Below are positions 28,916-31,057 of a DNA stretch of 64,000 nt, one piece after another. Origin of the DNA: Clostridia bacterium (GTDB lineage: Bacteria > Bacillota > Clostridia > Christensenellales > Aristaeellaceae); the NCBI GenBank assembly GCA_017512985.1, contig JAFWEJ010000009.1, positions 1-64,000 of the forward strand, given 5' to 3'. The position numbers and the translations under genes were made by a program. Below the pieces are notes generated by a model. It had not been told where the DNA came from. It saw nothing but the letters and a program-made list of their open reading frames with translations, and did not search any database. Numbering within the stretch: the first letter of the stretch is position 1; the number at the start of each line of letters is the position of its first letter.

Positions 28916-28945
28916 TTGACAAGGTTCCCCGAACAGGAATATATT
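28916..28945 (+). promoter_or_regulatory. Promoter of the Phe leader/paaK transcript
   Basis: Consensus -35 TTGACA (28916-28921), 18-bp spacer, -10 TATATT (28940-28945). The transcript would begin near 28952, about 40 nt before the leader peptide start. Confidence 0.75.
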
Positions 28946-28991
28946 TTTCGCAACGGCAGAACTGCCGGATGCATGAAAGGAGATTTCAGCA

Positions 28992-29042
28992 ATGAAATCG
29001 TACGCGACCATCTTCTTCTTTAGCAGGTCAGCGATGGATTAA
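28992..29042 (+). CDS. Phe-rich leader peptide of a putative attenuator
   Basis: Sixteen-codon open frame MKSYATIFFFSRSAMD with AAGGAG nine bases before ATG. Three consecutive Phe codons (TTC TTC TTT, 29013-29021) are followed by the stop TAA at 29040-29042. The last codons overlap the segment that can pair with the terminator's left arm. Position between a consensus promoter and a strong terminator upstream of paaK matches a ribosome-mediated attenuator leader such as pheL. The ORF is read directly; the regulatory role is inference. Confidence 0.75.
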   Translation: MKSYATIFFFSRSAMD

Positions 29043-29104
29043 TACAGACGCGAACAGCGCTTTGAATCCACCGCCTTTTGAGTATGAAAAGGCGGTGGTT
29101 TTTT
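29008..29104 (+). promoter_or_regulatory. Candidate phenylalanine attenuator (mutually exclusive hairpins)
   Basis: Four segments can be traced. Segment 1 CCATC (29008-29012) can pair with GATGG in segment 2. Segment 2 GCGATGGATT (29031-29040) can pair at 9 of 10 positions with segment 3 AATCCACCGC (29065-29074). Segment 3 is also the left arm of the terminator with segment 4. A ribosome stalled on the Phe codons would cover segment 1, freeing 2 to pair with 3 and prevent termination; a ribosome that reaches the stop codon covers 2 and lets the terminator form. Confidence 0.72.
29068..29104 (+). terminator. Attenuator terminator upstream of paaK
   Basis: Perfect 12-bp stem CCACCGCCTTTT/AAAAGGCGGTGG with a 7-nt loop, followed by six T residues; no gene with a normal-sized product precedes it on this strand, so it is a leader terminator. 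Confidence 0.88.
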
Positions 29105-29184
29105 CATAGTCGCGGCCATCGTTGACAGAAAAAAACCGCGCGTCATATTGATTCCCTCTGAATGATCGCAAAGGAGATATAATT

Positions 29185-30489
29185 ATGAAAAAGTATTACC
29201 AGCCGGAGATCGAAACGGCTCCGCGCGAGAAGATCCTGGAGATCCAGAATGAAAAGCTCGTCAAACAGGTGAAGCACGTATGGGACAACGTGCCCTATTA
29301 CCGCCGCCTGATGGAGGAAAAAGGCCTCACCCCGGACGATATCAAGTCCGTGGATGACATCTATAAGCTTCCCTTCCTCAGCAAGGCCGACCTGCGGGAT
29401 ACCTATCCCTACGGCATGCTGGGCACGGACCTGAAGGACTGCGTCCGCATCCATTCCACTTCCGGCACCACCGGCAAACGCGTGGTTGCCTTCTATACCC
29501 AGCATGACCTTGACCTCTGGTCCGACTGCTGCGCCCGCGCCATCGTCGCGGCCGGCGGAAGCGAAGAGGACGTCGTCCAGGTCTGCTACGGCTACGGCCT
29601 GTTCACCGGCGGTTCCGGTCTCCATGACGGTTCCCACAAGGTGGGCTGCCTGACCCTGCCGATGTCCTCCGGCAACACAGAGCGCCAGATCCAGTTCATG
29701 ATGGACCTGGAATCCACCATCATCTGCTGCACCCCCTCCTACGCCGCCTATATCGGAGAATCCCTGAAGGAAATGGGATACAAACCCGAGGATAACAAAC
29801 TCAAGGCCGGCATCTTCGGCGCGGAACCCTGGACGGAGGAAATGCGGCAGGAGATCGAAAAGAGCCTGGGAATCAAAGCTTACGATATCTACGGCCTGAC
29901 CGAAACAAGCGGCCCCGGGGTGGCCTATGAATGCGAAGAGCAGAAGGGCATGCACATCAACGAGGACCATTTCTACGCCGAGATCATCGACCCGGATACG
30001 GGCGAGGTCCTGCCGGAAGGCTCCGTCGGTGAACTGGTCTTCACCGCCCTGGACAAGGAAGCCTTCCCGCTCCTGCGCTACCGTACCCGCGACCTGTGTG
30101 TCCTGAGCCGCAAACCCTGTTCCTGCGGACGTACCCATGTACGGATGGCCAAGCCCATGGGCCGCAGCGACGATATGCTGATCATCCGCGGCGTCAACGT
30201 CTTCCCGAGCCAGATCGAGACCGTCCTGCTCAAGGAAGGCTATACGCCCAATTACCAGATTGTCCTTGACCGCGAACGCAACACTGACACCTTCGATATC
30301 TACGTCGAAGTCGCTCCGGACCAGTTCTCCGACCTGATGGGCCAGATCCAGAAGATGGAGAAGGGACTCGAGTCCGCCATGCGCACCATGCTCGGCATCG
30401 GGCCGAAGATCCACCTCGTACCGCCCAAGACCATCACCCGCAGCGAAGGCAAAGCTGTCCGCGTCATCGACAAACGCAAACTGCACTGA
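29185..30489 (+). CDS. paaK: Phenylacetate-CoA ligase
   Basis: AMP-forming ligase of 434 residues making phenylacetyl-CoA (or an aryl-acetyl-CoA such as indoleacetyl-CoA) in the cytosol. Adenylate-forming motifs: HSTSGTTGK (residues 90-98), YGLTETSGPGVAYECE, RTRDL and the C-terminal subdomain GRSDDMLIIRGVNVFPSQIE. Strong AAAGGAG site. It is followed by an ACT-domain protein, as in other anaerobes, where the pair often accompanies indolepyruvate ferredoxin oxidoreductase. Under a Phe-type leader, the likely role is biosynthetic: phenylacetate to phenylacetyl-CoA, then reductive carboxylation to phenylpyruvate and Phe, a route known from rumen bacteria. The oxidoreductase genes are not in this window. 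Confidence 0.93.
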   Translation: MKKYYQPEIETAPREKILEIQNEKLVKQVKHVWDNVPYYRRLMEEKGLTPDDIKSVDDIYKLPFLSKADLRDTYPYGMLGTDLKDCVRIHSTSGTTGKRVVAFYTQHDLDLWSDCCARAIVAAGGSEEDVVQVCYGYGLFTGGSGLHDGSHKVGCLTLPMSSGNTERQIQFMMDLESTIICCTPSYAAYIGESLKEMGYKPEDNKLKAGIFGAEPWTEEMRQEIEKSLGIKAYDIYGLTETSGPGVAYECEEQKGMHINEDHFYAEIIDPDTGEVLPEGSVGELVFTALDKEAFPLLRYRTRDLCVLSRKPCSCGRTHVRMAKPMGRSDDMLIIRGVNVFPSQIETVLLKEGYTPNYQIVLDRERNTDTFDIYVEVAPDQFSDLMGQIQKMEKGLESAMRTMLGIGPKIHLVPPKTITRSEGKAVRVIDKRKLH

Positions 30490-30631: not shown

Positions 30632-31057
30632 ATGGCTATTACGCAATTGTCCGTCTTTCTGATGAACCAGCCCGGCGCCCTGGTGGACGCCATCAAATCC
30701 ATCTCCGAAGCGGGGATCAACATCCGCGCCATGAGCATCGCCGAAGCCAACGATTTCGGAATCCTCCGGATCATCGTTTCCGACAGCGACGCGGTGGGCA
30801 GGCTTCTGAGCGAGCAGTACCTCTTCTCCAGGACGGAAGTCGTGGCCGCGCAAATGAATGACCGCAGCGGCGCGCTCTACCCGATCCTTGTTGTCCTCAA
30901 CGAGGCAAACATCAACATCGAATACATGTATGCCTTCACCGGTTCCGGCCCGGAAGAAGCCTATGTGGTCTTCCGCGTCAACGACGTGAAAACCGCTGAG
31001 GAAGTGCTCAATGCCAACGGCATCCGGACGCTTTCCGACGAAAACCTGAAAATCTGA
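30632..31057 (+). CDS. Tandem ACT-domain amino-acid-binding protein
   Basis: Protein of 141 residues made of two ACT domains (MAITQLSVFLMNQPGALVDAIKSISEAGINIRAM and the second from about residue 70, AALYPILVVLNEANINIEYMYAF-like), a fold that binds small ligands, usually amino acids. Start chosen at ATG 30632 after AGGAGG; the frame is open further upstream through the heptamer array without signals. Paired with phenylacetate-CoA ligase; it may sense Phe or another aromatic amino acid and adjust the ligase, which is inference. Confidence 0.88.
   Translation: MAITQLSVFLMNQPGALVDAIKSISEAGINIRAMSIAEANDFGILRIIVSDSDAVGRLLSEQYLFSRTEVVAAQMNDRSGALYPILVVLNEANINIEYMYAFTGSGPEEAYVVFRVNDVKTAEEVLNANGIRTLSDENLKI

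Follow-up and report, generated by a model that had tools for sequence, protein, structure and literature searches.

We consider it very probable that the element upstream of the paaK-like gene in this Clostridia genome is a transcription attenuator in which a translating ribosome monitors the charging of tRNA-Phe, and that PaaK feeds phenylalanine synthesis. The stretch of DNA analysed, here called the window, is 64,000 nucleotides long. The features of the locus within it are the following.

28916–28945, plus strand: sigma-70-type promoter P1, with TTGACA at 28916–28921, an 18-nt spacer and TATATT at 28940–28945; scores 11/12
28976–28982, plus strand: ribosome-binding site for the leader, AAAGGAG, read from the sequence
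28992–29042, plus strand: leader peptide MKSYATIFFFSRSAMD, 16 codons, from ATG at 28992 to TAA at 29040–29042, read from the sequence; homologous leaders in 21/26 close orthologs
29013–29021, plus strand: putative sensor Phe codons TTC TTC TTT, the first lying 18 nt 5' of segment 2, as in 21/21 leaders
29031–29040, plus strand: segment 2, the 5' strand of the antiterminator, GCGATGGATT, overlapping the leader stop codon; first eight bases conserved
29065–29074, plus strand: segment 3, the 3' strand of the antiterminator, AATCCACCGC, overlapping the left terminator arm and pairing with segment 2
29068–29104, plus strand: intrinsic terminator, with a 12-bp stem at 29068–29098, a 7-nt loop and TTTTTT at 29099–29104, from sequence and folding
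29185–30489, plus strand: paaK-like aryl-acid CoA ligase, 434 aa, ATG at 29185, from matches to TIGR02155 and PDB 2y27
30632–31057, plus strand: two-ACT-domain protein, from a match to Pfam ACT_8 ('ACT domain pair', E 9e-21)

The promoter, leader, pairing segment and terminator that the first-pass annotation had listed are all present where it had placed them. Segments 2 and 3 of the window locus are paired at 9/10 positions, with a single A.C mismatch. Folding of the leader region, which the same annotation had proposed as a check, gave a very stable structure for the RNA from 28955 to 29110 (-54.7 kcal/mol, z -4.3, with 0/200 shuffles equally stable). From its orientation, the two-ACT-domain gene is likely to be co-transcribed with paaK. 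The divergent neighbour of the leader-paaK locus is a DegV family gene.

A search of 45 genomes of the genus found a PaaK relative in 40. The close ortholog set consists of 26 loci with upstream DNA (84–100% identity); a 27th close ortholog (G022, 90%) was left out because a contig end cuts its upstream DNA. The leader element is found in 21 of the 26, with a terminator in each of the 21, and the order of elements is shared: a TTGACA promoter, a short FFF or FAF leader peptide, a pairing segment at or just before the stop codon, and the terminator. P1 retains TTGACA in all 21 of these loci and scores 10–11/12. The leader peptides themselves vary, from MKSFAAIFFFTKSAMD to MYSAAFFFSSIAMD and MKYSAAFAFRSSAMDE, and the codon run encodes FFF in 18 and FAF in 3, the middle codon of those 3 being Ala. 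The Phe codons swap synonymously between TTC and TTT with Phe kept. The distance from the first Phe codon to segment 2 (GCGATG) is exactly 18 nt in every one of the 21 paaK leaders, and the first eight bases of segment 2, GCGATGGA, are likewise identical throughout. The five close orthologs without a leader (L013, L016, L022, L025 and L027) have a promoter-like site (8–10/12) 28–58 nt 5' of the gene. In a PaaK tree of 30 rows, which held these five and four iorAB-linked proteins besides, the 21 leader-bearing proteins form one clade (support 86/50), which fits a single gain of the leader. Judged by its conservation in sequence, the leader element is confirmed to go beyond chance.

The same leader family is also found before genes of aromatic biosynthesis. 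We built a covariance model, R1, from 20 paaK leaders, which therefore match it by construction. Within the genus it gave strong full-length matches upstream of all 21 paaK genes, at a contig end in G024, and at an additional copy in G019; this second copy, MRPYVSGFFFSRSAMD, precedes genes for prephenate dehydratase and DAHP synthase (pheA-aroF). Weaker matches in the genus precede chorismate mutase-prephenate dehydratase (CM-PDT) and aroB (MFAYSYFYFYSIAMDS and MFANSYYYFYSPAMDG) as well as aroB-aroC (MFAYAYYYFTGAMDGRG). The three genus leaders on CM-PDT or aroB genes have mixed Tyr/Phe runs, unlike the Phe-only paaK leaders. Across the order, 13/396 genomes match R1, namely six of the genus, six of one genus in another family and one by chance. 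In the other-family genus the leader stands before prephenate dehydratase in 6/6, and DAHP synthase follows in the two tested. The order match L138 was rejected as a leader, being attributed to chance.

A class-wide search with a second model, R2 (E <= 0.05), gave matches in 44/391 genomes. Eleven of these loci were read and contain one real leader, MNKYSTKNFFFFRHAMDRSI at L256, which precedes CM-PDT in one genome elsewhere in the class; the ten others were rejected, having no ATG leader before an aromatic gene, and further leaders may lie among the rest of the 44. Against the window's own genome, R2 found no second clear copy. A scan of named genomes returned 83 stretches that match by pattern only, many of them in unrelated taxa such as Streptomyces, where the matches are probably due to chance; Clostridia MAGs from rumen, omasum and reticulum are also among them. 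The aroF-tyrA-pheA operon of the window genome has a different aromatic leader, followed by a strong hairpin with a short T tract only.

G000:C6, L289 reversed, from 5181, outside the window: leader MREAYVFYYFTFPRSV of the aroF-tyrA-pheA operon

The aromatic leader of this operon in the relative G001 is MRQAFVYYYYYFTFTKTV. Leader control therefore seems to extend to the de novo route as well as to paaK, whose leader has a Phe-only run.

Covariation was assessed in 32 leaders: the 21 of paaK, four on aromatic-pathway genes of the genus, the one at the contig end and the six from the other family. Seven positions of the antiterminator are paired in 32/32 leaders, two more in 30/32 and 26/32, and one position is A.C in 32/32. 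In the six pheA leaders of the other family, position 6 changes from G-C to T-A or T-G, and position 7 from A-T to G-C, and both remain paired. The terminator arms differ between the families (CCACCGCCTTTT vs ACCGCTACTTTT), yet the stem still forms. Furthermore, two of the six have a Phe-to-segment distance of 19 nt, which puts the segment in a different frame, so that the RNA, not the peptide tail, seems to be the conserved thing. The small hairpin between segments 2 and 3 gives a weak signal (139 pairs vs 116 in shuffles). The constant A.C mismatch leaves the antiterminator as the weaker of the two structures, and our guess is that it tunes the switch in this way.

A possible objection is that the locus is incidental, an upstream terminator that happens to stand beside a chance Phe-rich ORF, and terminators and short ORFs are indeed common in intergenic DNA. 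Given the presence of the element in 21/26 orthologs, its constant spacing, the covariation and the synonymous Phe codon changes, we find this explanation scarcely credible. Returning to the attenuator, we find at this locus a short ORF with a ribosome-binding site and a run of regulating codons, an intrinsic terminator 5' of the first structural gene, a mutually exclusive antiterminator that is conserved and covaries, and regulating codons at stalling distance (18 nt, 21/21). The first-pass annotation had read the locus as a Phe leader-peptide attenuator and had expected leaders and alternative stems to covary in relatives. The covariation is positive for the antiterminator, with compensatory changes at two pairs, and together with the 21/26 orthologs, the 18-nt geometry and the pheA, aroF and aroB leaders it argues for that reading. 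Comparison of sequences thus establishes the anatomy of the element, its conservation, its covariation and its association with Phe biosynthesis genes, while ribosome stalling and readthrough are what we infer from them.

The switch would work as follows. When Phe is plentiful, the ribosome would pass the FFF run, reach the stop codon and cover GCGATGGATT, leaving AATCCACCGCC free for the terminator, and transcription would halt before paaK. When Phe-tRNA is scarce, the ribosome would stall at the first or second Phe codon with GCGATGGATT exposed just downstream, and this strand would pair with AATCCACCGC while the right terminator arm has yet to be transcribed. With the antiterminator formed, RNA polymerase would continue into paaK and the two-ACT-domain gene.

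For the fold calculations we assumed that the ribosome covers 15 nt, counted from the start of the codon at which it stalls, or 12 nt, counted from the stop codon. In pre-terminator RNA the antiterminator is predicted to form with p 0.80–0.83 in 21/21 leaders if the ribosome occupies Phe codon 1 or 2, and with only p 0.18–0.29 if it occupies Phe codon 3; a ribosome on the stop codon gives the terminator with p 0.83–1.0, again in 21/21. When the whole transcript is folded with a ribosome on Phe codon 1, equilibrium still favours the terminator (p 0.78–1.0, 21/21). Since the terminator beats the antiterminator at equilibrium, control must be kinetic, with escape of the polymerase before strand exchange. 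The ribosome-free full RNA prefers the antiterminator in 2/21 (L015 and L018). Segment 2 is paired upstream in the minimum free energy fold of 23/31, with energies mostly no better than those of shuffles, and a protecting hairpin upstream of segment 2, being no better than shuffles, finds no support.

Turning to the regulated enzyme, PaaK matches the TIGR02155 equivalog over the whole profile with 528.4 bits, below the cut-off of 646.3, and its best solved structures are phenylacetate-CoA ligases (PDB 2y27, E 3e-128). Due to the score below the equivalog cut-off, we class the protein as a PaaK-family aryl-acid ligase, with phenylacetate as its presumed substrate. A gene that is induced by shortage of Phe-tRNA should supply Phe, and the regulation suggests that PaaK would be used to make Phe from phenylacetate, not to degrade phenylacetate. 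PaaK would provide an arylacetyl-CoA, of which phenylacetyl-CoA is the most likely, to a ferredoxin-dependent indolepyruvate ferredoxin oxidoreductase (IOR) for carboxylation to phenylpyruvate, from which a transaminase would then yield Phe. A counterpoint is that the window genome also holds the aroF-tyrA-pheA operon for the de novo route. According to PMC7356843, Phe can come from phenylacetate, by a route named there for rumen cultures. Carboxylation of arylacetyl-CoA by IOR is put forward for methanogens and Bacteroides in PMC13285125, which also places the Bacteroides IOR next to an arylacetate-CoA ligase of the AMP-forming type and gives the synthesis of aromatic amino acids as its possible role.

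The same pair of enzymes might run in the oxidative direction, fermenting Phe to phenylacetate, with the leader put to some other use; the IOR of Bacteroides thetaiotaomicron is reported to take part in the conversion of Phe to phenylacetate (cited in PMC13285125). The logic that we deduce for the switch is the opposite, with expression rising as Phe-tRNA runs low; for AMP-forming ligases the favoured direction is typically towards acyl-CoA (PMC13285125); and the same leader family precedes Phe synthesis genes. We are therefore strongly sceptical of an oxidative role, and retain synthesis of Phe from phenylacetate as the preferred reading.

The genomic context of paaK bears on this synthetic role. 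IOR is present above the family cut-off in 41/45 genomes of the genus. In the window genome, the iorAB operon, whose iorA lies at C4, has its own acyl-CoA ligase gene on the upstream side; another iorA adjoins a second PaaK-like gene (42% identity; G000:C10:87473-91117), with no aromatic leader flagged before this second iorA. We also surveyed the DNA upstream of paaK at 60 more loci of the order and the genus, a few of these regions being short or cut by contig ends. Within the fetched stretch, iorB-like sequence lies upstream of paaK in 4/30 genus loci and in 27/60 of the further regions; the iorB of L028 scores above the NCBIfam equivalog cut-off (265 vs 230 bits). A scan of 40 iorA loci (20 iorA1, 10 paaK-linked and 10 iorA2) for aromatic short ORFs recognised no leader, nor was a leader-like ORF flagged upstream of the ligase gene of the iorAB operon in four genomes. 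Since no leader could be made out immediately in front of iorA or of that ligase gene, Phe control is visible for the PaaK step alone. Some aromatic short ORFs before iorA do exist, for example MKPTGLFLFFR at L082 (G041:C2), 256 nt upstream, with paaK downstream.

Among the 60 further regions, two (L292 and L301) have a T-box directly before paaK. The Rfam alignments of both place UUC at the specifier position, between GAA or GAAG and A, which by the specifier rule we take to be a Phe reading. An unrelated aromatic leader, MEVRFYAYFYFYFFGFFANRTQRKPALA, with a terminator precedes paaK in L296, and L339 has a weaker one. These two were the only regions to pass a strict leader-plus-terminator test, 2/58 against 0.05 expected in first-order shuffles, L330 and L346 having been excluded as too short. 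L307 and L329 have candidate leaders before paaK by eye, and failed this test. In most of the 60 regions no Phe sensor was visible to the T-box and leader tests used.

These data also bear on a further explanation, in which the attenuator is real and the substrate of PaaK is a different aryl acid (indoleacetate or 4-hydroxyphenylacetate, for instance), or PaaK serves in aryl-acid salvage at large, with Phe as a proxy for aromatic starvation. The score of PaaK under the phenylacetate equivalog cut-off would be compatible with this, as would the one further Tyr or Phe codon found upstream in each of the 21 leaders. Set against it are the paaK leader runs, which are Phe only (FFF/FAF) where the three related genus leaders are mixed Tyr/Phe, and the UUC read by the two T-boxes before paaK. 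We regard such a substrate as unlikely, and continue to favour phenylacetate.

The recurrence of paaK under Phe-tRNA control is what would be expected if PaaK feeds phenylacetyl-CoA into reductive carboxylation to Phe. The part in Phe synthesis that the first-pass annotation had given to PaaK is thus supported indirectly, by the shared leader family, the adjacency of iorB, the IOR of 41/45 genomes, and the T-boxes and aromatic leader before paaK. On balance, we favour the view that the aryl-acid route to Phe came under the control of tRNA-Phe charging on more than one occasion, through a captured pheA-type leader, Phe T-boxes and unrelated aromatic leaders. Under the same view, held with the same reserve, in one clade paaK separated from an iorAB-paaK arrangement and came to respond to Phe starvation, so that reductive carboxylation of phenylacetate would be a regulated form of amino acid biosynthesis in this order, rumen species included.

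The pheL-pheA and pheM-pheST attenuators of Enterobacteria are represented in Rfam by Phe_leader. The element described here resembles them in its Phe-rich leader peptide, its antiterminator opposed to a terminator, its proposed logic of ribosome stalling and its place in a Phe regulon. It is unlike them in that the target is an aryl-acid CoA ligase, the host belongs to the Clostridia, the antiterminator strand overlaps the leader stop codon, and the protecting hairpin is without support. Five leader loci gave no match to the Rfam Phe leader even at an E-value limit of 5. The Phe T-box (RF00230), which binds tRNA directly and without a leader peptide, would likewise report on the charging of tRNA-Phe, and one precedes paaK in each of two genomes of the order (L292 and L301); the difference is that none is present in the window, which matches no Rfam family, T-box included, at gathering score. 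The mechanism is of a known kind; what appears to be new is its target, its lineage and the RNA family. The first-pass annotation knew of no described Phe attenuator of paaK, and in the titles and abstract starts that we searched, most subscription papers lying outside this scope, we likewise found neither a Phe attenuator nor T-box control of paaK.

The IOR and AMP-forming arylacetate-CoA ligase of Bacteroides and the anabolic IOR of methanogens are the same kind of enzyme pair, proposed to make aromatic amino acids from aryl acids (PMC13285125). The available text of that source describes no regulation of these systems, whereas here the regulation points to a direction. The same source treats it as an open question whether, in gut bacteria, IOR and arylacetate-CoA ligases serve the synthesis or the breakdown of aromatic amino acids (PMC13285125), and a Phe-starvation switch on the ligase would be independent evidence for synthesis. 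The switch would also offer a genetic handle on the phenylacetate-to-Phe route of rumen cultures (PMC7356843). If our reading is true, phenylacetate from other microbes would be a cross-fed precursor of Phe. The element adds a Clostridia family of leader-peptide attenuators without an Rfam match.

Several minor observations concern the locus itself. No plasmid match was found. A second promoter-like site (10/12) lies at 29122–29149, between the terminator and paaK in the window genome, and could serve as a bypass of the attenuator; at its place in 20 relatives the score is at most 8 or there is no candidate. The hairpin GATTTCA-GCAA-TGAAATC, at 28982–28999, surrounds the start codon of the leader and might tune leader translation; similar hairpins occur in at least six close relatives. 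Finally, a long open frame runs antisense to paaK on the minus strand (29143–30486), and similar frames are seen in relatives.
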